A stretch of DNA of 64,000 bases from Muriicola jejuensis. GTDB taxonomy: Bacteria; Bacteroidota; Bacteroidia; Flavobacteriales; Flavobacteriaceae. Shown here piece after piece: positions 19,431 through 64,000 of this stretch. The stretch covers positions 1,724,651 to 1,788,650 of the forward strand of contig NZ_JAABOP010000001.1 of assembly GCF_010671595.1 (NCBI RefSeq). Direction: 5' to 3'. The notes below the pieces were generated by a model, which worked only from the letters and a program-made list of their open reading frames with translations, was not told the origin of the DNA and did no database searches. A program made the translations under genes and the position numbers. Within the stretch, counting starts at the first letter, position 1; each line of letters starts with the position of its first letter.

Positions 19431-19490
19431 CTAAGATAGGGAATATGCCCAGATCTTTGAATAAGTCCGGGTGTAAGCACCTTCAGAAAT
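19431..19490 (-). repeat. attC-like site 1, decayed remnant (family C)
   Basis: Contains the family-C core (TTTTAACTAAGATAGG followed by GAATATGC and CAGA) but the outer arms and GTT ends are no longer recognisable. It is the leftmost convincing trace of the cassette array. Confidence 0.45.
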
Positions 19491-19500
19491 CGAATAGAAC

Positions 19501-20067
19501 TTAATCTGCTGCCTTTGCAGGCATGGAGGACCGATCTCTGAACTGCGAATTAACCCCATCAAAAATGTGGAACATTTTTAATCGGAAGTAATACGAGTTG
19601 AGGTCCTCATCCGACATATTTTCCATCAGTGATACATACCCCAACTTCGGGTTTCCCATATTCCCGGCAGAATCTGTTGGATTAGACAGGGTTCGCCATT
19701 TGGGATCCTTTTCCTTTAAGGATTCGATCATCCTATTCTCACACTGAAATATGGCTAATTTGGTTTCGTTATCCACTTTAAAAAAGGGGTCGTATTCCGT
19801 GAAAGACTGAACCGTAATACGGAAATCTTTATCCGAGGATATTTTTTGCAGCACCTCCAGATAGCTCTTGCCGGTAGTGTCTTTCAGGATACCTTTTTTG
19901 ACCAATTCCTTCTCATAGTCATCGATGATGGACTTCATGTCATATCCTGCCTCCTGATAGGTTTTATCGTAGCATTCTACTATAATCTCATCAAGTTCAG
20001 AAGATCGCTTTTGACACGAGTTGGTTAAGAGCAGGAGTAAGCAGAGAGATAGGATGGTTTTTTTCAT
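19501..20067 (-). CDS. Hypothetical lipoprotein (array paralog A)
   Basis: 188 residues from the ATG at 20065-20067, chosen because a lipoprotein signal (LLLLLTNSCQK) starts there. The mature part is helical. It is related to the protein at 21859-22440: DYEKELVKKGILKDTTGKSY here aligns with EFEDALIRSSIIPDNSFKSY there. Family unknown to me. It lies between decayed attC-like remnants and is probably an old cassette. Confidence 0.68.
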   Translation of the reverse strand: MKKTILSLCLLLLLTNSCQKRSSELDEIIVECYDKTYQEAGYDMKSIIDDYEKELVKKGILKDTTGKSYLEVLQKISSDKDFRITVQSFTEYDPFFKVDNETKLAIFQCENRMIESLKEKDPKWRTLSNPTDSAGNMGNPKLGYVSLMENMSDEDLNSYYFRLKMFHIFDGVNSQFRDRSSMPAKAAD

Positions 20068-20124
20068 ATGATGTCTCATGGTCTGATATTGCCTGTAACA
20101 GACGGGCAAGGAGTTAGGGTCCAA

Positions 20125-20214
20125 TAAGCTTATCTGACAATAGTTTGATTACTAATATAGGAAATAAGAGCAGACCTCGGAGAGCGATGCGTGACAAGCA
20201 TTATCATGCTTGCG
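20125..20214 (-). repeat. attC-like site 2, decayed (family C)
   Basis: Core TACTAATATAGGAAATAAGA with CAGACCTCGGAGAGCGATG is recognisably family C. The right end reads ATCATGCTT-GCGTTATTC where intact sites would read GTTGTGCTT-CGTTATTC, matching the 5' end GTTGTGCTT of the cassette it belongs to. Confidence 0.55.
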
Positions 20215-20982
20215 TTATTCTTTTAAATCTTGCTCAATGAGTTCTAAAATCATCTTTGAATCCTCTATCAATACCTGGGTGTCAGCAATATTGGTTCTTA
20301 AATAGAGCAATTTCTCGGTGATTAAACTTTCAAAGCGCCTATCATTTAGCAGTCCTTTAAAGTCACTGGGAAAGGGACTATGGATCTTATTTTCTTCGGC
20401 TAAATTATTTTGTGACAAACTATATAGAAAATCTGCGGATGAAACATAAGTTCTATATAAAGGATTGAGTTCTTGTGTCACTAAGTCCTGAACAACTCTT
20501 TGCTCTTCTAACATTTCCTCCATTTTATCTGGCCACTCAATCAGTTTAAACTTAAGGGAATCGTTTGAAATGGTGTTGATCTTTCCTGAGCTGTAGAGCA
20601 TATCGATCACGCTAAACTCTTCATTAACCGCATACCAAATAAACAGGTCTAGCTTATAGCTGAACATTTCCGAGTTGGATACTTCCTTGTCTTCTGAAGC
20701 GATAATTTCAAGTAGTCTTTTAATGCTTTCAATGTTTTTTCTCCTTCCGTCATTTTTATCTTCAAGTTCTTCTAATTTCCTTTCGAAGGATATCTTTAAA
20801 TTAGTGAGAAGAACTCGTTCTTCTGAATCTAGCTTTACCTTTTCATTCCAATTGTTAATTTGAAGGGCGATCAATATCCCAATAACTACAAGCGTAATTT
20901 CACCAATCGCATATTTTAGGTACTTTCCAGTTTTTCCCTCCGAAAGCAAGTTCTGTCGGATTTTTCTAAAGAATTTTATCAT
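20215..20982 (-). CDS. DUF6090 family membrane protein (paralog 1)
   Basis: 255 residues from the ATG at 20980-20982. The N-terminus MIKFFRKIRQNLLSEGKTGK, followed by a single transmembrane helix (ITLVVIGILIALQINNWNE), is the hallmark of DUF6090; the rest is a helical, probably periplasmic domain. Two other copies with near-identical N-termini occur at 53940 and 60346, each in its own cassette. Function unknown. Cassette 5' end GTTGTGCTTC; 3' end decayed. Confidence 0.85.
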   Translation of the reverse strand: MIKFFRKIRQNLLSEGKTGKYLKYAIGEITLVVIGILIALQINNWNEKVKLDSEERVLLTNLKISFERKLEELEDKNDGRRKNIESIKRLLEIIASEDKEVSNSEMFSYKLDLFIWYAVNEEFSVIDMLYSSGKINTISNDSLKFKLIEWPDKMEEMLEEQRVVQDLVTQELNPLYRTYVSSADFLYSLSQNNLAEENKIHSPFPSDFKGLLNDRRFESLITEKLLYLRTNIADTQVLIEDSKMILELIEQDLKE

Positions 20983-21713: not shown

Positions 21714-21848
21714 TTACAGCTCCATCTATGGTATGGTGTCTTAATTTGCAGATCACCTCAGGAATAATAAGGACTAATGTAGGAAAATTTAGCACGCCCT
21801 GGCCGGCGATGAGCCTTTCCGCCTTTGGTGGAGTTATAGCCGTTGTTA
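21714..21848 (-). repeat. attC-like site 4 (family A)
   Basis: Core GGACTAATGTAGGAAAATTT and GGCCGGCGATGAGCC, right arm GGAGTTATAGCCGTTGTTAG intact, left arm reduced to TTACAGCTCC. Right end GTTAGACAAC fits the canonical GTTRRRY core. Confidence 0.78.
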
Positions 21849-21858
21849 GACAACGTAT

Positions 21859-22440
21859 TTACTCTCCTTTAGGTTTATCCACATAGATATGGATGATACT
21901 GTCCGTATTGGGATCCAGGAACTTGCAAATCTTCGATTTAATTAATGGAAATTCAAAGTCAAGGGCATCATAAACCTCCAGGTATAATCCAGCGACCCTT
22001 GAACGACTAAGCAGTTGGCCATCATCGATAAGTTCAGAGACTTTTAGATTAAGCCTAAAACTCTTTGAGGTGTCAATGTTCAAGTATTTCGTTGCGATCA
22101 TGATACCCTCAGACGATAGCATTACTGATTCTAATACGAACCCCATTTTTTCAAGGGTGCCATCAGGATCAAACGCCGTTTCCAACTTAAATTCATAGCC
22201 CTTCTCTATTTCATGTAAAAGCTGTACATAGCTTTTAAAAGAATTGTCCGGTATGATACTACTCCTAATCAATGCATCCTCAAATTCTGAAATAGCCTCC
22301 TTTAGTGTAGTATAATAATCAGGACCCCCTGCAGACAGCAACCGATCCATTTCATATTCATAGGTGTTTGAGGTCATTTGGCAAATTGACTTTGTCGTCA
22401 AAAGAATGCAACAGATTCCTAAAAAACAGACTCTCTTCAT
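21859..22440 (-). CDS. Hypothetical secreted protein (array paralog B)
   Basis: 193 residues from the ATG at 22438-22440, beginning with a signal peptide (MKRVCFLGICCILLTTKSIC). It is a distant paralog of the lipoprotein at 19501-20067, sharing the pattern FE-ALI--I--D---KSYVQLL-EI. The cassette's ends agree: 5' TTAGGCAAC and 3' TTAGACAAC, one transition apart, although the leading G at the 5' side is mutated. Function unknown. Confidence 0.68.
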   Translation of the reverse strand: MKRVCFLGICCILLTTKSICQMTSNTYEYEMDRLLSAGGPDYYTTLKEAISEFEDALIRSSIIPDNSFKSYVQLLHEIEKGYEFKLETAFDPDGTLEKMGFVLESVMLSSEGIMIATKYLNIDTSKSFRLNLKVSELIDDGQLLSRSRVAGLYLEVYDALDFEFPLIKSKICKFLDPNTDSIIHIYVDKPKGE

Positions 22441-22448
22441 AGGTTGCC

Positions 22449-22610
22449 TAAGGGTTCCGACCTTACGTGACGGTTCACCTGCCGCAAGCATGGCAGGTTG
22501 GTCTGGTGCCTTACTAGCAGGACCAAACTTGGAATAATTAATAAACCCTAATGTAGGAAAATTTATCTAGCTCCGTGGGCTATCGGCAATACCTACGGTA
22601 ATCGCTTTTC
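22449..22610 (-). repeat. attC-like site 5 (family A, decayed right end)
   Basis: Left arm TAAGGGTTCCGACC, CGGTTCACCTGC element, and core AATAAACCCTAATGTAGGAA are present; the right arm is scrambled around 22580-22610. Confidence 0.6.
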
Positions 22611-22660
22611 TCACTGAGATTGATGCACATGCTTTTTGAACATATTAATCATATTCATAA

Positions 22661-24721
22661 TCAGTTTGATACGGCGTCAATCGGAAAGTAGTTCTTTTTC
22701 ATAATATCCGTATAACGTGGGTCATTTCTGTAAGGATCAATTGCAGTACTCCCATTGATCTCCATTAGACTGTGGTTCTTAAAATCAAGTTTGGCATAAT
22801 TTGAGATCTTATTCAAATAATGAAACAAGGAATCGGTCTCGTTTAAATGGGCAAAACAGAGTGCTTTTGAATGATCCATAAGGGTGAATCCGGGCCTGTT
22901 AAAGACTTCGTAGGTCGTTTTCGAATCGCCTTTTTTTGAAAACAACCATGCTTTATTCGAATAATAAACTATAGGATTAATTGGTTTTATTTGCTCCAGA
23001 TATTGATAGGCCCTTTCGAAATCGTACTGGAAAGCATAATAATTATGGAGCATTACTATTTTTTGTATTGGATGCAGTAAATCCATCAACGCATCATCGC
23101 TTAATATCTTATCAGCTTCCTCGAACTGCTTCCGATAATACAAGGTATTTAGCTTATCCACAATATAACCTGGGTTTGTAGAATCAATGTCAAATACTTG
23201 TTTAGAATAGTGAAGGCTCTTAGTTCGATCTAACAGAATACCCCTGTACAATCTACTCAATGCTTGAAGTAGAGAAAGATTATCAGGATCGTTCTTTAAG
23301 GCTCTTTCATAGGAATAAATTAGTTCTCTCAGGTCTTTTTTGATGGCACTGTTCAATAAGCCTTCGGCCTCAATAATTTCCTCTGGTTTTAATATAAATC
23401 TGATTTTTTCTAAATAGATTTTTGCTTCCTCAGTCTGATCATATGTTAAAAGCGCCATAAACCTCGTCTGATTCAAAGGTCTTGAAAGCGGATCCAGCTT
23501 ATAGGCTGCCGTTATATGCTCTAATAGTTTTTGTGCATCCGGGTCGGGTCTTTCCCGCCAATAAAGAGCAAAATGATGATGTGCTGTTGCATCGTTTGGG
23601 TTAATGTCAATCGCCTTTTCAAAATTTATCTTTGCCCTTTGCCAATCCCCGTCTCTAATAAGCAGCATAGCTCTAACACTATAAGGTCTGGAAATATTCG
23701 GATTGATCTCTAAGGCTTTATTAATATATAAATTGGCCTGTTTAGCAGACTCCTCTTTGCTCAAATCGCCATAAATATGAAGAAGCATATAGACATTGGC
23801 AATTTCGGCATAACCCTCTGCAAACAATGGATCTAATTTTATCGCTTCTTTGTACAACTCGATACTGTTTTCGAGGTTTTCTCGAGTTCTGTTATCTGCT
23901 ATGCTCCGCCCCTTAGCAAAGAGTTCCGACGCCAAAATATTGGTGGTTGTTTCTGTATTTAATGCCTTTTCTTCTTCAGGAGAAATGAATATCCTAAGTT
24001 GTTTTACTATTTTTTGTGAGACCTCTTGCTGGATCCTAAAGGCATCTGATAAATCTTCATTGTAGTTGTCCGCCCAAAGATGTTCATCGTTGGCTTTTAG
24101 AAGCTGAGCAGTAATTAGCACTTGGTTGTTCTGTTTGCGAACACTGCCTTCCACAATGTACTCAACATCAAGTTCTTTGGCTATTTCAGGTATGGATTTG
24201 CCGGAGTTCTTGAATTGCATAACCGATGTTCGTGAGATTACACGTAATCCTCTTACTTTTGATAGATGTGTTAATATGTCTTCTGTAACACCCATACTAA
24301 ACCATTCATTTTTTTGGTCATCACTTAAGTTTGTAAATGGAAGTACAGCAATAGATAATTTATCAGCAGAAACTGACGTAAAAACACCAGGTTTGATCCA
24401 AATTAAAGCGATAGTTGCCAACAGGGCAGCCATGATGACAATATTTAAGATCCTGTTACCTTTTGAACTCTTTGTCTCATTAACTAAATTCTTGGTCCTT
24501 ATAATTCCGGAGGGTGTAATTTGGTAATGCCATGAAAAGAACATCCAAAGGGGTAATCCTAAAACGAGGGTAATAGTGATGAGTTGTAAAACCCAAAGGG
24601 GTGCATTCCAAATGGGGAGTACAGTTGAAAATACTTGTAGGACAAGCCAGGCAATGACCAGATAAGCCACCGTTTCCTTGAGTACATTCCTTCTCTTTAG
24701 CTCTTTGATTAATTTGTTCAT
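22661..24721 (-). CDS. TolB-like N-domain and TPR protein
   Basis: 686 residues. Two N-terminal transmembrane segments (AYLVIAWLVLQVF, LITITLVLGLPLWMFFSWHY) are followed by a third near 95-110. A TolB/FlgO-like domain spans about residues 120-245 (SIAVLPFTNLSDDQKNEWFS, ISRTSVMQFKNSGKSIPEIA, LDVEYIVEGSVRKQNNQVLI). At least eight TPR units follow (ELFAKGRSIADN, PLFAEGYAEIANVYMLLHIY). This is the architecture usually attached to CadC or cyclase regulators and probably serves as a membrane sensor or scaffold. The gene at 43415 has the same TolB-TPR part behind a cyclase domain. Confidence 0.85.
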   Translation of the reverse strand: MNKLIKELKRRNVLKETVAYLVIAWLVLQVFSTVLPIWNAPLWVLQLITITLVLGLPLWMFFSWHYQITPSGIIRTKNLVNETKSSKGNRILNIVIMAALLATIALIWIKPGVFTSVSADKLSIAVLPFTNLSDDQKNEWFSMGVTEDILTHLSKVRGLRVISRTSVMQFKNSGKSIPEIAKELDVEYIVEGSVRKQNNQVLITAQLLKANDEHLWADNYNEDLSDAFRIQQEVSQKIVKQLRIFISPEEEKALNTETTTNILASELFAKGRSIADNRTRENLENSIELYKEAIKLDPLFAEGYAEIANVYMLLHIYGDLSKEESAKQANLYINKALEINPNISRPYSVRAMLLIRDGDWQRAKINFEKAIDINPNDATAHHHFALYWRERPDPDAQKLLEHITAAYKLDPLSRPLNQTRFMALLTYDQTEEAKIYLEKIRFILKPEEIIEAEGLLNSAIKKDLRELIYSYERALKNDPDNLSLLQALSRLYRGILLDRTKSLHYSKQVFDIDSTNPGYIVDKLNTLYYRKQFEEADKILSDDALMDLLHPIQKIVMLHNYYAFQYDFERAYQYLEQIKPINPIVYYSNKAWLFSKKGDSKTTYEVFNRPGFTLMDHSKALCFAHLNETDSLFHYLNKISNYAKLDFKNHSLMEINGSTAIDPYRNDPRYTDIMKKNYFPIDAVSN

Positions 24722-24835
24722 ATGCAGTACAACCCCCTTAAGTTAGCACATTTCAATCATAATGCTATTAAATTTAGAAAAGAGTAAATAAATGGCTTTC
24801 ATTTAAAATCGGATGTCTATTTTACTGCTGCCAAC

Positions 24836-24953
24836 TGTTACGGTTATGACCCAATGCCGGTGTGCATAGGCACCGGAAACTAGATTTTGGTATTAACTAA
24901 GATAGGAAATATGCGCTGTCCTGGGAGAGTGAGGTTTTATGGGCGTTGTTAAT
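24836..24953 (-). repeat. attC-like site 6 (family C)
   Basis: Left arm TTACGGTTATGACCC, core TATTAACTAAGATAGGAAAT, right arm TTTTATGGGCGTTGTTAATA. The region between the TolB/TPR gene and the next gene (24722-25141) otherwise contains only this site and the terminator at 25084-25120. Confidence 0.68.
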
Positions 24954-25083
24954 ATACATTAGACGTAGTAATTACATCAAATTCTATGATCCAATCAGAT
25001 GATTACGATGTTGATCTAATGAGTCGCATTTTGCCGAAAGGAGTTCGCTTGAAATATGTTCATAGGTAAAAAAGCCGTGACAT

Positions 25084-25120
25084 AAAAAAATCATCCCAGG
25101 CAACTAGTGCCTGGAATGAC
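25084..25120 (-). terminator. Rho-independent terminator
   Basis: On the coding (minus) strand a hairpin with stem CCAGGCA / TGCCTGG (extended by ATGA-type pairs) and loop CTAGT is followed by a run of seven T. It sits about 20 bases after the stop of the gene at 25142. One of very few classic terminators in the array. Confidence 0.8.
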
Positions 25121-25141
25121 CTTTAGATGCAGTACGCTAAT

Positions 25142-25669
25142 TTAATAGGTGATCGTTCCCTCGCCGCTCATGATAAATGTCCCACTAGATGGGGAGTCTT
25201 CGAAGACGATAACAGTTTCGATGAATACACCCGTGGCATTTTCAAACCGTCCGCTTCCCCCGTCGAAGTTCAATGTTTCTACAAAAACGGTAGGATTGGC
25301 ACCAATAAATTCAATTGAACTATGATAGCCTCTCAATTCGTCACCATTCGCTGCTGTGATCGTGATGGATCTAATACCAAGGTCACCTGGATTCTCAGAA
25401 CACCATTCCTCTAACATGGTACTCCGTCCAAGATGTGTTATAGTTCCTTCGCCAATAGCATTTAGGGCCAAGGCTGCGCATGATTCACCATCACCTGGAA
25501 AAAAGCTGTAAGTGCCTTCAATTTTCTTTATTTTAAAAGGACGTTCTACCGCCGCTTTTAATTTGACCTCCTGATTCATCAAATCAAGATCGTCATTGCT
25601 CATTGAATCACTTGTGCAGGCAAACAGAGTTGCCGCCAATAAGGATAAAATTACAAATCGATTTTTCAT
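25142..25669 (-). CDS. Hypothetical lipoprotein
   Basis: 175 residues with lipoprotein signal (LLAATLFACTSDS). The mature domain is beta-rich (YSFFPGDGESCAALALNAIG, EGTITHLGRSTMLEEWC, EFIGANPTVFVETLNFDGGS) and ends in SGTFIMSGEGTITY, resembling secreted beta-barrel proteins described only as hypothetical in Bacteroidota. Followed by a terminator. No exact enzymatic motif. Confidence 0.75.
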   Translation of the reverse strand: MKNRFVILSLLAATLFACTSDSMSNDDLDLMNQEVKLKAAVERPFKIKKIEGTYSFFPGDGESCAALALNAIGEGTITHLGRSTMLEEWCSENPGDLGIRSITITAANGDELRGYHSSIEFIGANPTVFVETLNFDGGSGRFENATGVFIETVIVFEDSPSSGTFIMSGEGTITY

Positions 25670-25987
25670 AATTAATTGGTTTAGGTTGGTAATTATTGTG
25701 TTTGCTTTTAATCTTTGATTTCCTGTTTGAAGCAGGAAATACTATTTCCAAAAAGCTATAAAAATAGATTTGTGAAAAATTGCAGGTGATTGATAAAAAA
25801 GAATTGAGGGGAATAATCTTCTTAAAGTACGATTTAAATCACACATAAACAAATACTTAGACCGGGAATAAAAATTGTAGAGCCCTGCGGGTAAGACTAT
25901 GATGACTGTAAAACTCCTTACTCGTATTACAACATATATGTCAGATGGTAAACGCGGTCAGAAAGATACTTCTCTATTTAATAAACG

Positions 25988-26052
25988 GTGCTTTTCCTGC
26001 CTGCCGACAGGTTTACATGCCTTAGGTATGCAGGGCCGGAACCGTCGTTACC
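25988..26052 (+). repeat. attC-like half element in inverted orientation
   Basis: Reads on the plus strand CCTGCC-GACAGG-TTTACATGCCTTAGGTATGC-AGGGCCGGAACCGTCGTTACC, i.e. the reverse complement of the left half of intact sites. The corresponding right half is not visible next to it. Probably the trace of a hairpin or cassette inversion. Confidence 0.7.
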
Positions 26053-26060
26053 AAGCGTTT

Positions 26061-26262
26061 TTAATCTGCTTTCATCAATCCATCTGCATTCTCTTTTACC
26101 AATAGGACAATTAGTGATTGGAATTCTTTTACAAAGTTCTCGCAATAAAACTATTCTGCTATCTTGATTGCCGGGGGAATTTCTTTATAACCTTCTACGA
26201 ATGAATTCCATCTCTTGTCCCAGTCCAAACTTGTAAAAAAGCAGCTATGGATTATAGCTCTT
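26061..26262 (-). pseudogene. Decayed cassette gene fragment
   Basis: A minus-strand frame reads WDKRWNSFVEGYKEIPPAIK, then an in-frame TAG, then NFVKEFQSLIVLLVKENADG to TAA at 26061-26063. It is followed by the AAAAACG box and GGTAAC next to the inverted half site, as expected at a cassette 3' end. No start codon or family recognised. Confidence 0.3.
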
Positions 26263-26564
26263 TGTTAGCCACATTCTTTACTTTACTTCGTACGTGATTT
26301 CAGCATTTTCAAGTTATTCTTAAAAAGTATTCTATGCAGGAATAATCGGGGTTATTTAAGACTCCTTTATGTTCAGATGCAGGAAAGAAACGGCATTTAC
26401 TTATCTTTGTCGCTGGCAAAGAATTGACACTCATCTTCTTTGCTTTCTCATGTGAAGTGTTCACTTCTTTTCATGCAATCACGGTAACACGCAATTTTAG
26501 CTTTGACCACTTGCATTCAATATAGTACCAATAAGTGCTATCAACTTGATTTAACTCTAATCAA

Positions 26565-56008: not shown

Positions 56009-56028
56009 TGATTTTCTTAAATGTGTTA

Positions 56029-56154
56029 CAACGGTCTAGTGTATGAGTAGTGACGGACTTTTACTCACGAACCTTTGGCTTTTGCCCTGACCTGTTTTTT
56101 ATCTCGATGCTTTAGTTTTAACACTTAAGCTGTGATTAGTTATACACAGTGTTG
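56029..56154 (-). repeat. attC-like site 37 (unique type)
   Basis: Left CAACGGTCTAGTGTATGAG, right TTAGTTATACACAGTGTTGG: arms AGTGTATGA / TATACACAG-like. The middle has no relation to families A to C. Confidence 0.78.
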
Positions 56155-56168
56155 GCATTTCGTTATTT

Positions 56169-57434
56169 CTATTTAGATAAATAACCTAAGCGTTCTCCCA
56201 TTAATAGGTGTTTGTATGAATATCCATCATCTTGTTTTGGCGCGTCTAAAGTGAAGGTGACCCCCTCTTGAAAGATCATAATGAAGTCTGAGCCACCAAA
56301 GGCAAAATGGCCCAGCATATCGCCCTTAGACACTTCTGTTCCGGGAGTAATGTTTTCTTCAAAGTTCACAGATCCAACAACGCCCATCCCTATTGGCAAT
56401 AATGCAACAAGGCCGTATTCCGGAGTTTCAACAATTACACATCCTCTTGTTTCAATGGATTGCCAACCTGTTTTGGCGGCTGGGTTAAAGGCATATCTCT
56501 TGTTTTCTTCATCCCACCAGAGTTGTCCACCGGTTGGGTTTATACCTTCTATAATTCTTGACTCTTTTATAGTACCGCTTACAGGAAAGTGATATCTATG
56601 ATAATCATTCACGTTTAGAAAAGAATGGGTAAAGGTGCCATAGGCGAATGCTTCTTTGTATTGACTCTCCTCACCAATAAGTCTTGATATGGATTTAAGA
56701 GTGGCTGACTTTACAGGAACACCATCGGGGTCTATCAAGTACGAATTTTCGTCAATGCCCCAGACTCCCATGGGCTGTGAATCTGCAAATGAAACGACTA
56801 CCGAATTATCATCAGGGCTCGCAATAGGTCTCATTTCCCGGGACTTGAGATATCTAGCAAAGAATTGGTTAAAGGTTTTCCAATTTGCAGGATCTTCGTA
56901 CCACCCCTCTTGCAGTCCGAAGGTTGGGTCGTTTAAAGCGAGTTGATAATTTTCTTCATTCCATGAATCCTCAGTATCGAGGTAGGAACCCCATGATTTA
57001 TTAAAGCGAATAAGCCATTTGGCGAAAGGTTCATAGTACTGCAGGGAGTTATTCACCAACCCTTTATTTTCCAGCTCTGGTAATGGTTGATCTATGAGGA
57101 AGTAGAAAGTGCAAAAGCCCTGAAAAATATGATCAAAAATCTCAGGATACACTTCCTTTTTAACCACTGCCCAAGGCATTCCTGTTTCTACCCAGCTTAC
57201 CAATTCATAGTATTCTTCAAGGCTCTGAGCAGGGTTTGTATTCCTGTCAGGATTTATTTCCTTGGCTTTCTGAATCGAAGATTCAAGCAAGGATTTTAGA
57301 TTCGGATCACTTTCCAATAGCGCTATCAACTCTTGGGTGGCCTTTCCGTATGTCATCTTTTCTTTCGGTGATGAGCAGGAGAACGATAGAAAGAAAACTA
57401 TAAGAGTGAGGAAAATGTATTGAGGTTCTTTCAT
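56169..57434 (-). CDS. Phosphatidylserine decarboxylase-like lipoprotein
   Basis: 421 residues with lipoprotein signal (LIVFFLSFSCSSP). The N-terminal part (LEEYYELVSWVETGMPWAVV, GFCTFYFLIDQPLPELEN) resembles the domain associated with phosphatidylserine decarboxylases. The C-terminal half has the PSD core (GTIKESRIIEG, NRGCVIVETPEYGLVALLPIG, GHFAFGGSDFIMIF), with GGS as the pyruvoyl-forming site equivalent instead of LGST. A secreted form cannot use the usual cytoplasmic pathway, so its true substrate is uncertain. Ends match over nine bases (GTTGGCATT). Confidence 0.85.
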   Translation of the reverse strand: MKEPQYIFLTLIVFFLSFSCSSPKEKMTYGKATQELIALLESDPNLKSLLESSIQKAKEINPDRNTNPAQSLEEYYELVSWVETGMPWAVVKKEVYPEIFDHIFQGFCTFYFLIDQPLPELENKGLVNNSLQYYEPFAKWLIRFNKSWGSYLDTEDSWNEENYQLALNDPTFGLQEGWYEDPANWKTFNQFFARYLKSREMRPIASPDDNSVVVSFADSQPMGVWGIDENSYLIDPDGVPVKSATLKSISRLIGEESQYKEAFAYGTFTHSFLNVNDYHRYHFPVSGTIKESRIIEGINPTGGQLWWDEENKRYAFNPAAKTGWQSIETRGCVIVETPEYGLVALLPIGMGVVGSVNFEENITPGTEVSKGDMLGHFAFGGSDFIMIFQEGVTFTLDAPKQDDGYSYKHLLMGERLGYLSK

Positions 57435-57488
57435 GAATAGAAAATTAGGTTGGTCAATTAAGGTTTTTTCGACCTAAGTGATGAATGC

Positions 57489-57555
57489 CAACGGTTCCGG
57501 CACTGCATACCTAAGGCATGTAAACCTGCCGGTAAGCAGGTTATAGCCGTTGTTG
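57489..57555 (-). repeat. attC-like site 38 (short, 67 bp)
   Basis: Left CAACGGTTCCGGCACTGCAT, module TACCTAAGGCATGTAAACC, right GGTTATAGCCGTTGTTGG. Confidence 0.9.
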
Positions 57556-57569
57556 GCAACAGTAAGTTG

Positions 57570-58718
57570 TTAATCATATTTCACTTCTTCTCCACATCCG
57601 ATAAATACTAGAGCATCAAAATGACTTAATATTTGTGTTTTGCTACTCTCTAAATTGAAAATAGATAAATCGTTAAATACTTTATTATTAAGTTCAGGGT
57701 TGTTCTTTATTATTTTTTTCGAATCTATAAAATAGTTTTTATTTACAGACGGGAGAGCAAATAGAATTGATTTGTCACTTTCTTCGGCTTTTGTAATTTT
57801 TTCTTTGGTTCTGGGTGCTAAATGGATTGAGCCTACAGCAATATGATAAGATGAATTAGGATTTAATTGCCTAAAATGATAACCCATGGTCTGTTCACGC
57901 ATTATTTTGTCATTTGATTTTGACATATGACCATTAGCAAGCCAAACAATGAATTTATTATGTGCATTGTGTTGAATTAAAAAATCAAGATTTTTAGCCA
58001 TTTGTTTATCACGGAGGGCTATTCTTTTCTTGTCGGAATAGATATCATTTAGGGTATATAGTGTTATTGCACTCTTAAAACTTTTTAAAATTTGGACCCA
58101 CAAAACATTGGAATAAATCAAATGGTCATTGAGAAGTTGATCAGTGTAATCAACTAAAAATTTTATCTCTTGTTTGGTGATAAGTCTCCTGCTGTTGTAT
58201 TGATTCCGGATAAGGGTTTTGGCAAGTCTTTCATAGTCTTCATTTAACCGACTATTACCTTTCCTAAGTTCTTGGTCTAATTTTTTGGTGAAATTTATGT
58301 AGGAATAATCACTGTATATTCTGTTGTCAAATCCCCAAATTGTCACCTCTTTTTTTTTAAGGAAATCGAAAAGCTCTTTACATTGGCTTGATTTGCTCCA
58401 CATTCGATATAAATTCTGTTTATCATGGTCAAATAATAAAGCGAAAAAGTCGCTTTCAAATGCAATGTCTTTATATCCATGCTCAATTACCAAATACTTG
58501 ACAAACTCGGCTTTAGCTAGAAAGTCAGAGCCGCTATAATGAACGGCTTCTCCTAGAAATACAGTTTCATTTTTACTGACATTATTGTTGATAATTTTCT
58601 TGACTTCTTCCGTTAACAATTTGTTTAATGAATTCAATTCAAAAATTCCTGCATCAATTTGGGAATTTGTGATCTGGTAAGAGAAAAATAATAAGAGTAG
58701 TAAAACTGTTTTTCCCAT
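57570..58718 (-). CDS. Erythromycin esterase-like protein
   Basis: 382 residues from ATG at 58716-58718, with signal peptide (LLLLLFFSYQITNSQ). Family motifs FLGEAVHYSGSDFLAKAEF VKYL (active-site Glu/His region) and EHGYKDIAFESDFFALLFD, then KFIVWLANGHMSKSND. These resemble the EreA/EreB-type superfamily, although most members are not resistance enzymes. Ends match over ten bases (GTTGGCAACA). Confidence 0.85.
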   Translation of the reverse strand: MGKTVLLLLLFFSYQITNSQIDAGIFELNSLNKLLTEEVKKIINNNVSKNETVFLGEAVHYSGSDFLAKAEFVKYLVIEHGYKDIAFESDFFALLFDHDKQNLYRMWSKSSQCKELFDFLKKKEVTIWGFDNRIYSDYSYINFTKKLDQELRKGNSRLNEDYERLAKTLIRNQYNSRRLITKQEIKFLVDYTDQLLNDHLIYSNVLWVQILKSFKSAITLYTLNDIYSDKKRIALRDKQMAKNLDFLIQHNAHNKFIVWLANGHMSKSNDKIMREQTMGYHFRQLNPNSSYHIAVGSIHLAPRTKEKITKAEESDKSILFALPSVNKNYFIDSKKIIKNNPELNNKVFNDLSIFNLESSKTQILSHFDALVFIGCGEEVKYD

Positions 58719-58727
58719 TATTGTTGC

Positions 58728-58854
58728 CAACGTATTTGTGTATGACTAGTTGCGTGGTTAAGCAATGAATTTAGCAAACAAATCACAGATAGAAAATTCC
58801 GCTGGAATTTTCGTAAGTCGGCAGTGACCTAGCAATTAATTATACACTTTGTTG
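58728..58854 (-). repeat. attC-like site 39 (unique type)
   Basis: Left CAACGTATTTGTGTATGAC, TAGTTGCG, internal hairpin AAAATTCCGCTGGAATTTT, right GCAATTAATTATACACTTTG and TTGG. Arms GTGTATGA-CTAGTTGC / GCAATTAATTATACAC. Confidence 0.82.
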
Positions 58855-58881
58855 GCAATAGTATTTATTCAATAACTATTA

Positions 58882-59529
58882 TTAATATTCACCAATTTCA
58901 TCTATTACAAATAATCTAGATGCTTCACCATCTTTTAGTTTGTATTCTATTTGGCGAGTACCTCCGGTTGGGTTATTATAAGTATCTCCATCCTTGTAAA
59001 CAGGAAACCTTCTTACTAAAGTGGTTTCTATAATTGTAAATTCATCGTGTCCCATATAGCCGCTGCCTGCCTCCTTATTTTCAGATATTTCGGGGAAGTA
59101 AATTTGACTTATCGACTTTCCATTATTTACTGAATAACCAATAACATCGCCATAGCTGCCGCTTCCTGCAGATATTGTATAAATCAATATTTCAGGAAAT
59201 CCATCTGAATTTAAATCTTCAATTTCTGCATTGGTAACTTGCCCTTCCAATTCAAGAGTAATTTTTTCATTATCTATTTCCAATCCTTTAGGTTCAATAG
59301 TTAATTGACTAATAGACCCTTCTCCAGTATTACTTACATCAAAGGTTATATTTTGTAAGGTCAATGTTTTTTGAAATATAATTTTTTGTTCATTTTGAAT
59401 AGGATTCTCAATACTTAAGACCTTATTATTTTCAATTTGTTCTTTATTGATTTTTCCCTGTTCGTTCTTACATGCAATAATAGTCAATGCTCCAACTAGA
59501 GCAATTGTGGTTGTTTTTAATTGTTTCAT
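58882..59529 (-). CDS. Hypothetical lipoprotein (cassette)
   Basis: 215 residues with lipoprotein signal (LTIIACKNE). Middle region EGQVTNAEIEDLNSDGFPEI LIYTISAGSGSYG looks like an FG-GAP/VCBS-like repeat strand (DLNSDGFPEIL), implying a calcium-binding loop. The rest is beta-rich and unassigned. Ends match over ten bases (GTTGGCAATA). Confidence 0.75.
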   Translation of the reverse strand: MKQLKTTTIALVGALTIIACKNEQGKINKEQIENNKVLSIENPIQNEQKIIFQKTLTLQNITFDVSNTGEGSISQLTIEPKGLEIDNEKITLELEGQVTNAEIEDLNSDGFPEILIYTISAGSGSYGDVIGYSVNNGKSISQIYFPEISENKEAGSGYMGHDEFTIIETTLVRRFPVYKDGDTYNNPTGGTRQIEYKLKDGEASRLFVIDEIGEY

Positions 59530-59545
59530 GTTTTTTAATTATTGC

Positions 59546-59673
59546 CAACGGTTCTCACCTATACGCAGGCAGGGATTTTAGCCACTGAACTTCCTACAAA
59601 GAACTGAACTTTAAATTTACCACTTACCTGTCCTACGCTGCATGAAACCCCTGCTTGCATATAGGTGATGTTT
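59546..59673 (-). repeat. attC-like site 40 (unique type)
   Basis: Left CAACGGTTCTCACCTATACG, right CCCTGCTTGCATATAGGTGA then TGTTTTGCC; arms TCACCTATACGCAGGCAGGG / CCCTGCTTGCATATAGGTGA pair over about 18 of 20 positions, the longest stem in the array. Confidence 0.85.
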
Positions 59674-59686
59674 TGCCTACCTGCTT

Positions 59687-60253
59687 TCATTTTTCAACGA
59701 TTATCATTCTATAATCAGTTTCAGATTTATGTCCGCTGTGCTTGTCTTCAAAAATGTACTTGAAGTCCTTGTCCATTAGTCGTTTTCGTTTTTTTTTAAA
59801 GTCAAGTGCCTTGTTGAGAATTTGAACTTTGTCGCCTGTATCCTGAATACAAACAACTACCAGACTTCCATTTCTTAAATCCGAAATGATTTTTTTGATC
59901 AGTCCAATTTCTTTTTCCTTGTCTTTCTTGGCGAAATGAAACATACTGTCCAAAATGATTATATCAAACTCGTCAAAACGGTCAAAAGCATAAATGTCAT
60001 CAACTTGTCCAACCAAATTCAAATTTTCAACTTGACCTATTTGGTTCATTTGGTCGATACCAACTTTTGAGTTGTCAATTCCTGTCACGGAATAGCCCAG
60101 TCGAGCTAATGCAATTGCGTCTCTTCCTTGTCCGCAACCTAAGTCAAGCAATTTTCCTTTATTGGGAAATTCATCAAAAAACTCAATCAATTCTGAATAT
60201 GGTTCTCCGAATAGGTTTTCTGTCTGATAATATTTGTCGTAGGTGACGGTCAT
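59687..60253 (-). CDS. Class I SAM-dependent methyltransferase
   Basis: 188 residues, no signal. SAM-binding motif LDLGCGQGRDAIALARLGYS (about 35-55), the motif II acidic end YSVTGIDNS, motif III FDIIILDSMFHFAKKD, and a further strand SLVVVCIQDTGDK. Similar to tellurite-resistance TehB-like and other small-molecule methyltransferases; acceptor unknown. Ends agree over the TGCCTA stretch (5' GTTATGCCTA, 3' GTTTTGCCTA). Confidence 0.88.
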   Translation of the reverse strand: MTVTYDKYYQTENLFGEPYSELIEFFDEFPNKGKLLDLGCGQGRDAIALARLGYSVTGIDNSKVGIDQMNQIGQVENLNLVGQVDDIYAFDRFDEFDIIILDSMFHFAKKDKEKEIGLIKKIISDLRNGSLVVVCIQDTGDKVQILNKALDFKKKRKRLMDKDFKYIFEDKHSGHKSETDYRMIIVEK

Positions 60254-60278
60254 TTTCGTCTTTTAGCATTAGGCATAA

Positions 60279-60337
60279 CAACTGTTCCGTATATGAAGCG
60301 TAGCGAGGTACGAGCTATGATTTCATATACATTGTTG
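60279..60337 (-). repeat. attC-like site 41 (compact, 59 bp)
   Basis: CAACTGTTCCGTATATGAAG ... GATTTCATATACATTGTTGT: arms GTATATGAA / TTTCATATAC around GCGTAGCGAGGTACGAGC. Confidence 0.88.
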
Positions 60338-60345
60338 TGCTATCG

Positions 60346-61086
60346 TTATTTGTTCAATTCAATTGATATAGAGTCGTTGATAATCTTACAATAATTCTGG
60401 AGTTCTTGTATTGCCTTTAAATTTGCTTTTAGTGCATTTTGAAAGAAAAGTGCATAAGTTTCATGGATTCGAAATTTATCAGATTTAGGATTTTTCAACC
60501 ATGACCAATCCTCATGCTCAAGATTACGATTTGCCCATAATCTATGCCATAATCGAATATCTATATTGTTATATGTCCAATCTTGAAATTTTTCATTGTC
60601 AATATTCAGTTTTTTTAATTCGACCTCAGTCTCCTGAAAGAAAGTAATGATTTTATTCTTGAGTTCTGAGTTTTTTATAATTATATCATTACCTGAGTTG
60701 AGTATATCGCTATAACTGCTCCTGTTTAAATGTAGAAAATTCATTGTGCCTCTTCCTATGTTATACTGGTCTAGCCTCTCTAACTTAACAGTCTTTGCAT
60801 TTAATACTGAATCAAGTATAAATTGGGATTGTGAATACCACATGCCATATTCGCGTTTAAGAGAATCCATATAAATTATATCTTGTTGTATTTCATGACG
60901 AAGTTTTGTCAAGAGTTGGATTCCATTCTTCTCTTTTTGTCTCTGTTCATTAAAATTGTTCAGATTTATGGCAATTAAAATACCTACGACAACTAGAAAA
61001 ATTTCTCCAATTGCATACTTGAAGTACTTTCCGGTCTTTCCTTCTAAAAGCAAGTTTTGTCTAATTTTTCTAAAGAATTTTATCAT
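60346..61086 (-). CDS. DUF6090 family membrane protein (paralog 3)
   Basis: 246 residues: MIKFFRKIRQNLLLEGKTGK start, one transmembrane helix (IFLVVVGILIAINLNNFNEQ) and a helical extracytoplasmic domain (QLLTKLRHEIQQDIIYMDSL). It closely resembles the paralog at 20215 in the N-terminal 40 residues but diverges after. Function unknown. Ends share GTTGTGCT. Confidence 0.86.
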   Translation of the reverse strand: MIKFFRKIRQNLLLEGKTGKYFKYAIGEIFLVVVGILIAINLNNFNEQRQKEKNGIQLLTKLRHEIQQDIIYMDSLKREYGMWYSQSQFILDSVLNAKTVKLERLDQYNIGRGTMNFLHLNRSSYSDILNSGNDIIIKNSELKNKIITFFQETEVELKKLNIDNEKFQDWTYNNIDIRLWHRLWANRNLEHEDWSWLKNPKSDKFRIHETYALFFQNALKANLKAIQELQNYCKIINDSISIELNK

Positions 61087-61116
61087 TGGTTATGGTTGGT
61101 TTCTCTTAATAAAGCA

Positions 61117-61255
61117 CAACGGTTCCGGCTATGGTTTGCCTGCCTGCCGGCAGGCAGGGAGCCTGGTGGCGCCAGCCTTCCGTTTAGTTTTTAGTAATCC
61201 CTAAAATACCAAATAATGCCAAACCCTGGAGGGCGATGAACCATAACAGTTGTTG
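61117..61255 (-). repeat. attC-like site 42 (family B)
   Basis: Left CAACGGTTCCGGCTATGG, palindrome GCCTGCCTGCCGGCAGGCAG, core CCCTAAAATACCAAATAATG, right CCATAACAGTTGTTGCC. Confidence 0.92.
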
Positions 61256-61286
61256 CCATTTCGTTGTTTTACATTCTCTGAGGGTA

Positions 61287-61829
61287 CTATTGATACAAAA
61301 CATACCTTGGGGGTTGGAGCCCATTCAATCTCAAAGAAACCAGCATTTGGCCTCTGTGATGTGTAATATGGTCAGCTAAAAGGAGCAATACTTGTCTTTT
61401 TGTTCTATCCGATCCGAAATAATCCAATCTGTCCTCAAGATTATCTATGTTATAGTTTTTAATAAACTCTATTGTGATTTTAAAAGTTCGATCAATTGTT
61501 TTAATCATTTCTTCTTTGGATTTGTTATCAGTTTTTAGCTCCGTATCGGTATTCCAATCTCTGGCTTCACGGCCACCCATTAATGTCTGACTATGCCAAT
61601 CCATTGCCCAACCTATGTGCATTAGATTTTCAGCAAAACTCAATGACTCAGGTGTTGCTTTAAATTCATATTTATTTTCAGGCATAGTTTCTGCAACAAG
61701 AATTAAATATTTGCGAGAATTTTCCAGTCGTTCTAAGTATTCATTTATGAAATTGCTCTCTTGCGCAAAAAGATGTGAGGGGAATGAACTAATGACTAAT
61801 ATTAATGCCAATAGGAAAATACGTTTCAT
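61287..61829 (-). CDS. DinB-family secreted protein
   Basis: 180 residues with signal peptide. Four-helix DinB fold with metal-binding His: HIGWAMDWH near residue 72 and DHITHHRGQMLVSLRLNGLQ near the end, which supply the three histidines of the family. Exported DinB proteins are unusual but occur in Bacteroidota. Cassette 3' end GTTGCCATT; the 5' end reads ATAGCCATT, so the core has decayed. Confidence 0.87.
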   Translation of the reverse strand: MKRIFLLALILVISSFPSHLFAQESNFINEYLERLENSRKYLILVAETMPENKYEFKATPESLSFAENLMHIGWAMDWHSQTLMGGREARDWNTDTELKTDNKSKEEMIKTIDRTFKITIEFIKNYNIDNLEDRLDYFGSDRTKRQVLLLLADHITHHRGQMLVSLRLNGLQPPRYVLYQ

Positions 61830-61881
61830 AGAGTAAGACTTCGTTTTTTAAAATAAATATTTGAAGGATTTTTGCAATGAA

Positions 61882-61938
61882 TGGCTATGTATATGAGTAA
61901 TAGCTGACCTCAGGAAGCTATTACTTATATACTTTGTT
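61882..61938 (-). repeat. attC-like site 43 (compact, 57 bp)
   Basis: Arms GTATATGAGTAATAGCT / AGCTATTACTTATATAC (16 of 17 pairs) around GACCTCAGGA; right core TTGTTGTGC. The left core has been lost. Confidence 0.82.
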
Positions 61939-63457
61939 GTGCAACGTATTTAAATTCATAATATCCTTTTGGTGCAGTTATAGGTCTTGTTTGAGTTTCT
62001 CCAGTATTCGCTTTTACTTCTATATAGTACTCTATTTCCATTCCTTCACTTCCCTCTATAAACTTAGCCTTCCAATGATTGGGGTTGTTATTCATGTCCA
62101 TTATTATTCTGTTCCAATTAGTTTGACCTTTTATCCTCCAGCTAAGAAATACTTCTTTAATAGACAAGCTTTCTTTTCCATAGTCAATAATAGTAGCATA
62201 AAGAATAGCTTTTTGGTTTATGTTAATTTCGGGGAAGACTTTTTTAACAGATATTAGTATTTTGTTTTCATCCCATATCGCTTTTGTTCGGCAATGGATG
62301 GCATCCTCATATAGCCAGCCAGTTTTTACACCTAATTCACCAAAACCTTCAAAATGGTATTTAGATTTAATTGGCTGCTCTTCCAATACATAATCGAATC
62401 CTTTGATAGTATATCCAGGCATTACCGACTCCCAAGTTTTTAACGCTATAGAATCTTCTTTAATACCAAACAACGGAACATATACTTTCTTATTAAGAAT
62501 AATCGAATTAGTATATGCTGAAAGATAAGCGGCTTCTCCATCCTCGTAATAAACACCGGTTTTAATCCTATGAATTGTATAAGGACGATTATAGACAGTC
62601 TTTAAATTCGATAGTTCGTTCTTAACAATATTGTCATATACATTATATAATTCATGGTCTACCGGTGGTTCAGCAACTAAAATAGTTTCTTCATCAATAA
62701 GCTTCATAAGGCAATCAATATGTTGGATGCCCATTTTATCAAAATTTGAAATGATATGATAATTTGAGAGTCCAAGGATAGAATCATTTAATCTAAAAAA
62801 CTCATCATCACTTACACCGTTATATCTATTTTCTGTCAGTAAAGCACACGTGGAAAATGCGGTGCCTAGACCATCAGTAATTACATTGCCTCCAGTATTT
62901 GCAAATGGAACATCAAGCACTTCAAGTCCAATTTCATTTCCAATAGTTACTATTGCTGTATCTACATGAATACTTTTATAAATTTTTCCAGTGCTACTAC
63001 TAATGTGAAATTCAAGTGAATCATTGCAAACCATATCTGTTGATGGGCATCCATATTTATACTGACCGTCAGTAATTTTAACTTCTCCTTTATTTGTAAA
63101 AACAGCACTTGGCCCCCAATCTCTAGGAGTGACTTCCCAATTCGTTTTTAGATTAATAAAAGTTATATTCCCAAGGTCTATATTCCATTTTTCAAACCAT
63201 TCTTTGGCTTCAATTTTCCCTTCTTGTCCATCTACATAAAGATAAATGTGCGTGTCCTTTGCAAATTCGATAATCAGGTCTTTAGAAATTACAGGTGGCC
63301 ATACGAACGTTACTCCTTTAACTGGTTCCCACTCAGCCGCCATTCTATTATTTTTAATTTGCAGATAATTCTTGCTTGCAAGTTTGCTTTCTAATTTCTC
63401 ATTTTGACAGGAAATTAGAAAAGAGAATAATGTGATTAAAATGCTAAATCTTATCAT
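61925..63457 (-). CDS. Peptidylarginine deiminase/agmatine deiminase-like lipoprotein
   Basis: 510 residues with a lipoprotein signal (LISCQNEK). GME-type deiminase fold as in Porphyromonas PAD: TPRDWGPSAVF (111-120), GGN (189-191), HIDCLMK (246-252, His and Asp of the active site) and the catalytic Cys389 in AIHCRTKA. Hydrolyses guanidino groups of peptidylarginine or agmatine. The extreme C-terminus (VAQQSI) and stop are encoded inside the attC site. Ends match perfectly over ten bases (GTTGTGCAAC). Confidence 0.9.
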   Translation of the reverse strand: MIRFSILITLFSFLISCQNEKLESKLASKNYLQIKNNRMAAEWEPVKGVTFVWPPVISKDLIIEFAKDTHIYLYVDGQEGKIEAKEWFEKWNIDLGNITFINLKTNWEVTPRDWGPSAVFTNKGEVKITDGQYKYGCPSTDMVCNDSLEFHISSSTGKIYKSIHVDTAIVTIGNEIGLEVLDVPFANTGGNVITDGLGTAFSTCALLTENRYNGVSDDEFFRLNDSILGLSNYHIISNFDKMGIQHIDCLMKLIDEETILVAEPPVDHELYNVYDNIVKNELSNLKTVYNRPYTIHRIKTGVYYEDGEAAYLSAYTNSIILNKKVYVPLFGIKEDSIALKTWESVMPGYTIKGFDYVLEEQPIKSKYHFEGFGELGVKTGWLYEDAIHCRTKAIWDENKILISVKKVFPEININQKAILYATIIDYGKESLSIKEVFLSWRIKGQTNWNRIIMDMNNNPNHWKAKFIEGSEGMEIEYYIEVKANTGETQTRPITAPKGYYEFKYVAQQSI

Positions 63458-63473
63458 AAGTTTTTATGTTGCA

Positions 63474-63592
63474 CAACGGTCTCGGCTATGACCAGGCGCC
63501 TCGATGGACAGACCTAACCGCTTTTAATTAATAAACTCTAAAGTAGGAAAAATTACCTATCCTTGGCCGGCGATGGGCTATAGCCGTTGTTA
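63474..63592 (-). repeat. attC-like site 44 (family A)
   Basis: Left CAACGGTCTCGGCTATGACC, core AATAAACTCTAAAGTAGGAA, GGCCGGCGATGGG, right GCTATAGCCGTTGTTACC. The last complete site before the right edge. Confidence 0.92.
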
Positions 63593-64000
63593 CCTGCTGG
63601 CTTTTGGGTTCTTTACTTTTAAAGCGCAAAGCACGATCCATAAGATAAATGTTGATTCCACTGTCCTTTGTAGTAGTCCAACGTAATCAGAATAGGTATA
63701 AGTAATTAAAACAACTACAAAGAAAAAACCAATTGAACCAAGGGCAAATGATTGCACCGAGAAGGAATTATATCCAATACTTCTTGCACCAAATCCAGTT
63801 AGTACTATGGATGACGGAACGATAATATAAGTTAACAACCCTGTTAAATTATGAATTAGTTGAGAAGTACTTGGGTTTATTAATTCTCTGTTACATCCGC
63901 TATCACATGGAAAAATTGAAACTACAATAGTTGCTACCCCATAAAATATTCCAATTCCATAGAAGCCTATTCTACTCCATTTGGAAGCTTTAAAATGGTG
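63590..64000 (-). CDS. DUF998-type membrane protein, 5' end beyond window
   Basis: At least 137 residues, continuing past the right edge. The frame carries the FPCDSGCNRE sequence typical of the DUF998 family (predicted sterol or fatty-acid related membrane proteins), with transmembrane helices IGFYGIGIFYGVATIVVSIF, LTYIIVPSSIVLTGFGA, SFALGSIGFFFVVVLITYTY and VESTFILWIVLCAL. An internal TTG start at 63838 would lose this conserved region. Cassette 3' end reads GTTACCTGC. Confidence 0.82.
   Translation of the reverse strand, partial: HHFKASKWSRIGFYGIGIFYGVATIVVSIFPCDSGCNRELINPSTSQLIHNLTGLLTYIIVPSSIVLTGFGARSIGYNSFSVQSFALGSIGFFFVVVLITYTYSDYVGLLQRTVESTFILWIVLCALKVKNPKASR

Follow-up and report, generated by a model that had tools for sequence, protein, structure and literature searches.

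In classical integrons, by the account given in passages of PMC2727003, the ends of a cassette carry 9-11 consecutive complementary nucleotides, and the canonical attC site bears single unpaired bases on its R''-L'' arm, the first of which primarily directs strand choice. Passages of PMC7790495 describe the I2 patch of the integrase IntI as docking these extrahelical bases (EHBs), as needed for cassette capture and as giving the enzyme its single-strand activity; the patch is termed a defining characteristic in an excerpt of PMC9668308, and one survey, going by its excerpted text, retained only integrases that have it (PMC2426708). The nearest hint of an exception in the literature is a remark in PMC8138268 on an "integron-like" subgroup among tyrosine recombinases, whose insertion is said to be "not fully conserved"; the available passages of that paper do not tie patchless members to cassette arrays, attI, attC or Flavobacteriaceae. 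Among the matches listed from the open-access literature, a scope that leaves preprints and most subscription papers outside, there was no recognisable account of Flavobacteriaceae integrons or of patchless integrases with arrays. Here we describe a system of this kind in Muriicola jejuensis (genome of 3.31 Mb in 26 contigs), based on a window of 64,000 nucleotides (contig C11, positions 1724651-1788650) that holds a cassette array, and on a second contig, C22, where a tyrosine recombinase gene is found with an attI and cassettes. We propose that the array is very probably an integron-type platform, in which a recombinase devoid of the I2 patch would insert cassettes at attI from a folded bottom strand.

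In the window, unrelated and mostly minus-strand genes are separated by about 35-39 attC-like sites from about 21 to 64 kb, and the array runs off the end of contig C11, which terminates at window base 64000. The original prediction had recognised an integron-type cassette array in a Bacteroidota genome, and this stands: matrix-detected sites are far above shuffles, they are localised, and there is turnover relative to Muriicola marianensis. Its account of the arm sequences and their layout also agrees with what we see, as does its placing of nearly all array genes on the minus strand, the longest open reading frames (ORFs) showing 26565-27931 as the chief exception. Its figure of about 44 palindromes of 46-215 bp was approximate in number, the sites being about 35-39 and of 44-215 bp. 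The array is real; good sites begin only at about 21.7 kb and nothing beyond remnants is present within 19.4-21.7 kb, so the left edge is not sharp. The edge is blurred also by the segment 21201-21577, which matches M. marianensis at 72% outside the array of that organism.

Sites were detected with arm matrices iterated from the originally predicted consensus, together with L''/L' pairing. At a threshold yielding 0.5 sites per shuffled array there are 36 sites on the coding (minus) strand in 18-64 kb against 3 on the other strand, while the first 18 kb of the window has 1 site on each strand; at a score of at least 20 the window has 35 sites on the coding strand and 2 on the other. A few matrix matches inside ORFs are probably false, and five further plain sites stand outside the matrix list. 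A strict 9-bp palindrome scan missed most of the sites because their arms mismatch, and a search of Rfam found nothing in the window. The arms pair, with 2355 Watson-Crick pairs in the L arms of 333 sites against 2029 +/- 17 after arm swaps within loci (none of 2000 as high). Thus, as in classical integrons, an imperfect palindromic attC-type site follows each cassette gene. The exact right arm has 38 copies in the genome, all on the C11 array, C1, C2, C3, the left end of C22, C23, C24 and C26; copies with 2 mismatches outside these pieces number two (one on C19, one on C11 beyond the window), and at up to 3 mismatches there are 79 on one strand and 15 on the other, against 22 and 11 for a backward control. 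We take C1, C2, C3, C23, C24, C26 and the left end of C22 to be fragments of one array broken at its repeats. Together with C11 these eight pieces, which may overlap slightly at their ends, hold 102 sites over 87,321 bases at a score of at least 20.

The unit that these sites delimit has a distinctive form. On the coding strand a cassette starts with GTT-N7-AT and ends with AC-N7'-AAC directly before its site; in reverse complement, N7' corresponds to the N7 of the same cassette and not to that of the next one. In 193 cassettes from 30 loci (six small contigs of M. jejuensis and other genomes, L115 being excluded as a copy of L027), defined by consecutive sites with scores of at least 20, exact AAC and GTT and a distance of 150-2000 bases, the end matches its own start at 6.24 of 7 positions, against 2.68 for the next cassette and 2.69 for all others, and own exceeds next in 29 of the 30 loci. 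For the 39 cassettes of the window array and C22, a count that keeps three unusually long stretches, the values are 5.23, 2.41 and 2.34 (permutation p ~1e-4). Such own-end pairing fits what excision of a cassette as a circle with its own site requires; it is also seen at canonical IntI loci of Bacteroidota.

The original prediction had noted that no integrase lies in the window, and one was indeed found elsewhere in the genome. Among four PF00589 genes of M. jejuensis, that at C22:4267-5211 is an open frame which ends a row of seven sites near-identical to those of the window and reads toward the cassettes. Directly after its stop codon lies an attI with the conserved ...TATAACmA|GTT. The motif TATAAC-N1..4-GTT occurs between -40 and +260 of the stop in 44 of 47 distinct integrase genes that pass a motif filter, compared with 12 of 1605 control windows; L112, among the three genes without the motif, encodes another recombinase that the filter let through. 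When the start of the first cassette is predicted from the N7 of the first site, allowing at most 2 mismatches in 10, it falls exactly on the attI motif in 27 of the 30 rows (out of 49) in which it is predictable, and in the remaining three (L079, L109 and L116) on an apparent earlier, undetected site. The attI thus adjoins the integrase gene as in classical integrons, whereas the gene is co-oriented with the cassettes rather than divergent from them. Just upstream of the attI motif a TAnnTT[TA]N stretch, which resembles the -7 element of Bacteroidota promoters, is present in 30 of 44 cases.

This association extends well beyond Muriicola. In 27 loci of named genomes (L027-L053), drawn from 41 retrieved with the C22 integrase, sites lie on the integrase strand in 17, and in eight of the ten siteless loci the contig stops less than 350 bases from the gene. 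Of 20 long-contig loci, 18 bear one or more sites on the strand of the integrase, four or more being present in 15, and one of the 20 has a site on the other strand; sites lie downstream in 28 of the 33 loci having more than 1.2 kb past the integrase gene. Matches to the integrase family at E<=1e-60 occur in 104 of 299 Flavobacteriaceae genomes, with an identity of at least 46% in 80; other recombinases may be among the weaker matches. When 16 loci of weaker homologues were scanned, clear arrays were found in L183 (11 sites), L194 (8) and L189 (5), all Flavobacteriaceae; loci of other families had at most 3 sites (L180), and three of the contigs scanned end within 260 bases of the gene. The distant relatives L052 and L055-L063 show no row of sites by a repeat search in four and a circle test in ten, the latter giving 0-6 circle pairs per locus (L052 6 against 5, L056 2 against 1 and L063 5 against 4 in the highest of 20 shuffles). 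At L052, a Kapaibacterium relative, one like site (9301-9423) with a matching circle pair lies on the opposite strand upstream of the integrase, an arrangement that equals the canonical divergent layout. Most flavobacterial integrases (L030, L043 and others) have an extra N-terminal domain with a WSxT...WY motif, which gave no Pfam match in the two tested; the notion that it replaces I2 was dropped, since M. jejuensis and its closest kin (the Muriicola/Eudoraea branch, L027-L029) are without it.

The prediction had further expected an IntI with the extra helical patch, and in this respect the enzyme proved different. The integron model TIGR02249 scores the C22 integrase at 199.5 bits, below its cut-off of 265 and split in two stretches. 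Against the Vibrio integrase 2a3v the enzyme has 18 residues where 2a3v has 61, the alignment jumping from 197 to 216 against 182 to 244. In an alignment of 103 recombinases the patch region is 79 residues long in all 33 canonical IntI but only 37-38 in the flavobacterial group, without exception among its 62 rows, one of which is from Kapaibacterium. The nearest solved relatives are archaeal XerA: the best NCBIfam model is XerA_Arch (221.8, cut-off 220), and a fold search, the sole use made of an AlphaFold2 model with a predicted template modelling score (pTM) of 0.48, returned XerA first and then 2a3v. Nor is the enzyme a member of the XerC/XerD clade (no search for dif sites was made): M. 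jejuensis has separate XerD- and XerC-like genes (L001, L003), which end without the SPxD tail and fall in another clade. Canonical IntI above the TIGR02249 cut-off is present in 84 of 296 Bacteroidota genomes, and twenty such loci have 0-2 matches each to the flavobacterial site matrix. Its presence in other Bacteroidota families (L118-L167) is commoner than the available passages of surveys suggest.

In phylogenetic trees of these recombinases (29 or 16 flavobacterial rows drawn from the 62, with 33 or 14 IntI, all from Bacteroidota) the IntI rows group together (100/99) and the flavobacterial rows form a clade of their own (97/87 and 98/93), so placed that the flavobacterial integrase falls outside the IntI clade. 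Proteins from Woesearchaeota and Nomurabacteria join IntI at 100/96 in the larger tree and 89/56 in the smaller. At somewhat less than even odds, Flavobacteriaceae may possess a second integron lineage, which would have split before I2 arose or originated apart from it, would act on folded single-stranded cassettes with neither I2 nor EHBs, choosing the strand by the stability of G.T wobbles, and would be a living pre-I2 integron. A possible though rather doubtful alternative is that a classical IntI lost the patch and its sites then lost the EHB, making this a derived, secondarily simplified integron. The SPxD tail common to the flavobacterial integrase and IntI speaks for such an origin, as do the AAC-AA and uneven-spacer layout that the flavobacterial sites have in common with canonical Bacteroidota attC and the fact that a tree uniting the flavobacterial group and IntI as a single clade is not rejected (p-AU 0.236). 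However, the flavobacterial group does not nest inside IntI, none of its rows exceeds 38 residues in the patch region, and the SPxD tail is also carried by Woesearchaeota/Nomurabacteria recombinases without the full patch: their patch region has 37-39 residues in four and 56 in L055, and the tail is found by pattern in four, the fifth reading SPYD.

The absence of the patch has a counterpart in the predicted folds of the sites. A 1-nt bulge on the R''-L'' arm of the folded bottom strand, the position of the EHB, is seen in 41 of 54 canonical sites versus 6 of 186 flavobacterial ones (Fisher 2.6e-28), both sets selected independently of the matrix, with arms and exact own-end complementarity as the sole criteria; by locus the figures are 13 of 17 versus 5 of 40, and in the matrix-chosen flavobacterial set 4 of 160. 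A fold-free comparison of arm register placed 84 of 154 flavobacterial sites as symmetric; an extra base fell on the R''-L'' arm in 1 site and on the other arm in 25. Hence I2 and its extrahelical-base partner appear to be missing together. With no I2 patch, hardly any EHB in the predicted folds and an integrase that is not in the usual orientation, we do not file the system as a classical integron, though it would seem to work like one, and its designation as a superintegron of the classical type does not hold.

Choice of the bottom strand may instead have another basis. In 161 sites of at most 170 nt with at least 6 of 7 N7 matches, the predicted bottom hairpin is more stable than the top one in 155 (mean -27.5 vs -24.1 kcal/mol, p 3e-27), and it is favored in 181 of the 186 sites picked without the matrix; among canonical sites the bottom is more stable in 39 of 57 or 36 of 54, depending on the set. 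On the coding strand, A.C accounts for 390 of the imperfect L-arm pairs, G.T for 92 and other combinations for 160; A.C is commoner than G.T in 42 of 54 loci, and G.T is the commoner in none. Since an A.C pair on the coding strand becomes a G.T pair on the bottom strand, the bottom hairpin is the more stable; selection at the level of a transcript would give the opposite mismatch bias. Directly after N7 a C.A pair, i.e. G.T on the bottom strand, is present in 177 of 199 sites; in canonical sites no pair is fixed in this way. The two sides of the central spacer differ in length (2-3 versus 5-6 nt), as they do in canonical sites.

These observations bear on a further alternative, that the sites are recombined as double-stranded DNA in the manner of Xer/dif, the hairpin being a by-product of two inverted core sites. 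Archaeal XerA being the nearest solved relatives of the enzyme, and I2 being held, in passages of PMC7790495, to confer single-strand recombination, lend it some plausibility. We nonetheless consider it unlikely, in that double-strand recombination gives no reason for a bottom strand favored so consistently through A.C to G.T changes, and the N7 varies yet pairs with its own other end, which suits structural recognition. Under the integron-type reading, the cassette circle, or its displaced bottom strand, would fold, and the recombinase would join the R' box (G|TT) of the folded site to double-stranded attI; one strand exchange would insert the cassette, and replication would resolve the junction, as in classical integrons. 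The strand would be chosen through the G.T wobble pairs and the uneven central spacer rather than an I2-EHB contact, and transcription of the first cassettes would start from a promoter-like TAnnTTTG within attI (Pc). A directional TA[CT]nTTAG motif, which is perhaps a promoter, lies at a near-fixed position inside Muriicola-type sites (e.g. 38709-38835), in 64 of 234 versus 1 on the reverse, and a stretch resembling it is also present in attI.

Comparison with M. marianensis (NZ_BMFH01000001.1) provides the genomic setting. There, a single array, about 9 kb long with 10 sites and terminated by the integrase, lies between flanks that match window 96-17284 and C22:4242-11996; over the 107 kb scanned there are three more minus-strand and two plus-strand matches outside it. 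M. jejuensis holds at least 42 + 4 kb at the same place, where probably all its array pieces sit, and it is on this synteny that the assignment of the window and C22 to one array rests. Three blocks are common to both arrays (window 21.8, 26.3 and 39.6 kb), at 83-90% identity and in another order, and the gene content is otherwise largely non-syntenic, unlike the first 17 kb of the window. Cassette gain, loss and reorder, as expected of a classical integron, are thus evident from this pair as well as from cassettes that occur across genomes whose integrases are distant: L100 and L108, two genera by their labels, have 93.7% identity over 873 bp of cassette DNA, and the M. jejuensis array has 88.6% identity over 712 bp to L031, the integrases of these two being 60% identical. 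Many genera carry one and the same 123-bp site in near-identical form; this common type occurs on plasmids of Flagellimonas marinaquae and of Persicobacter psychrovividus, the latter from another order (16 places on one plasmid; a site there at 97.6% identity), while no phage record matches it at the sensitivity used. One P. psychrovividus (Cytophagales) plasmid locus (L168; NZ_AP025294.1 303357-327479) is a one-way array with 11 matrix sites in 24 kb and 36 circle pairs versus 2.6 in shuffles. The mobilizable F. marinaquae plasmid L169 (NZ_CP092416.1) has a single site at 10816-10938, 95.9% identical to the common flavobacterial type, which adjoins a gene of the dihydrofolate reductase family, with a Tn3 transposase, erm(F) and a xerA-type recombinase close by.

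The same comparison makes it very improbable that we are dealing with a cluster of attC sites lacking an integron integrase (CALIN), as had been suggested, or with a decaying classical integron that lost its IntI. While the window is without an integrase and the far end of the array is degenerate, an open, co-oriented recombinase gene with attI and near-identical sites stands at the other array end on C22, syntenic with M. marianensis, and none of the 86 sampled Bacteroidota genomes with any TIGR02249 match is of Flavobacteriaceae. Intergenic palindromes are common in bacteria, but that these are ordinary dispersed repeats or terminators between chromosomal genes is scarcely credible, with exact right arms confined to the array pieces and not scattered genome-wide, a gene order that is not conserved but differs between the two species along with array size, and cassettes with own-end complementarity.

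Several points tell against our interpretation and should be weighed. The window and C22 are unjoined in the assembly and linked via synteny, and the window has a weaker signature in its own-end score and its 9 exact circle pairs versus 2.6 in shuffles, which implies that much of its array is old. At L034 and L052 kilobases downstream of the integrase have no site by a matrix trained on one genome, and 5 of the 33 loci with more than 1.2 kb downstream show none at the threshold used. The folds are minimum-energy predictions from a single DNA parameter set; in them a 1-nt bulge on the other arm is seen in 33 of 186 flavobacterial sites versus 2 of 54 canonical ones, 1x1 loops occur in 53 of 160 matrix-chosen flavobacterial sites, and the arm-register test left 43 of 49 canonical sites unplaced. 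N7 complementarity and a bottom-strand bias, though a weaker one, are found in canonical attC as well, so that by themselves these marks do not tell the systems apart. When all three EHBs of a Vibrio site were deleted, as given in passages of PMC2727003, bottom-strand recombination was down only 6.2-fold, so EHBs are not indispensable even to IntI. Finally, excision and integration themselves are deduced from sequence.

Features of the window, in window coordinates, with the means by which each was identified or characterised
Feature	Position	Strand	Remark
Chromosomal flank, outside array	96..17284		ordered match, with gaps, to M. marianensis 2228699-2251757
Cassette array	21715..64000	-	runs off contig end; cassettes mostly minus-strand
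attC-like site, right arm decayed	21715..21847	-	arm-matrix scan
attC-like site, diverged	24833..24950	-	arm-matrix scan
attC-like site	30887..31033	-	arm-matrix scan
attC-like site	31967..32121	-	arm-matrix scan
attC-like site, 215 bp	34783..34997	-	arm-matrix scan
attC-like site	35523..35667	-	arm-matrix scan
attC-like site, 46 bp	35912..35957	-	strict palindrome and arm-matrix scans
attC-like site	36555..36619	-	found by eye
attC-like site	37422..37567	-	arm-matrix scan
attC-like site	37784..37917	-	arm-matrix scan
attC-like site	38709..38835	-	strict palindrome and arm-matrix scans
attC-like site	39522..39696	-	arm-matrix scan
Cassette: HTH_3 protein (39695-40006) and small partner ORF (40009-40296)	39695..40296	-	toxin-antitoxin-like arrangement
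attC-like site	40366..40491	-	arm-matrix scan
attC-like site	41169..41305	-	strict palindrome and arm-matrix scans
attC-like site	41895..42031	-	arm-matrix scan
attC-like site	42719..42865	-	arm-matrix scan
attC-like site	46118..46239	-	arm-matrix scan
attC-like site	46789..46927	-	strict palindrome and arm-matrix scans
attC-like site	47503..47634	-	arm-matrix scan
attC-like site	48508..48645	-	arm-matrix scan
attC-like site, 44 bp	49559..49602	-	found by eye
Fic cassette gene	49614..50729	-	Pfam Fic, Fic_N; defence model SoFic 5.1e-108
attC-like site, 48 bp, near-perfect hairpin	50983..51030	-	strict palindrome and arm-matrix scans
attC-like site, 46 bp	52165..52210	-	found by eye
attC-like site	53395..53511	-	arm-matrix scan
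attC-like site	53833..53930	-	found by eye
attC-like site	55088..55236	-	arm-matrix scan
attC-like site	56030..56153	-	arm-matrix scan
attC-like site	57490..57554	-	arm-matrix scan
attC-like site	58729..58853	-	arm-matrix scan
attC-like site	59547..59672	-	strict palindrome scan; added to matrix list
attC-like site	60280..60336	-	strict palindrome and arm-matrix scans
attC-like site	61118..61254	-	arm-matrix scan
attC-like site	61880..61938	-	arm-matrix scan
attC-like site	63475..63591	-	arm-matrix scan

The cargo of the cassettes is diverse. Pfam matches among 20 cassette proteins, a few of which fall below Pfam's own cut-off, include DUF6090, erythromycin-esterase-like, phosphatidylserine decarboxylase, Fic, beta-lactamase-fold hydrolase, cyclase with TPR, GNAT, methyltransferase, peptidyl-arginine-deiminase-like, amidohydrolase, alpha/beta hydrolase, HTH and TPR proteins, and one of the 20 had no match at E<=0.001. 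A PADLOC search of ten cassette proteins gave one strong match. The block 39612-40373, with the HTH_3 cassette, is 90% identical to M. marianensis. At locus L005 of M. jejuensis, near attI, one small membrane-protein cassette occurs twice (1959-2300 and 2904-3245), likely by a recent duplication.

If this interpretation is right, integron recombination can run without the I2-EHB contact, and the system offers a natural test case for the origin of integrons. Between a quarter and a third of the Flavobacteriaceae genomes sampled would then possess a gene-shuffling platform, whose cassettes pass between genera and whose sites extend to plasmids, and the absent patch would help explain why these arrays went unnoticed.

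Set beside known systems, the array resembles classical integrons, for which the canonical IntI loci of other Bacteroidota served as our comparison set, in having attI beside the integrase, a one-way array, sites with the R''-AA-L''...L'-spacer-R' layout, cassette-end complementarity of about 10 nt, a bottom-strand hairpin, diverse cargo and an integrase with the SPxD tail. It is unlike them in an integrase without the I2 patch, placed outside the IntI clade and encoded in the same direction as the cassettes, and in sites that, when folded, nearly all lack the EHB and owe a stronger bottom-strand stability to G.T wobbles. The orientation recalls the integrons of Treponema, in which, according to passages of PMC3607928, the integrase is transcribed toward attI in the same direction as the cassettes; those integrases are termed intI there, and they are compared here by gene orientation alone. 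With archaeal XerA and with XerC/XerD the enzyme shares the build of a tyrosine recombinase, whereas the XerC and XerD genes of M. jejuensis differ from it in tail and clade.

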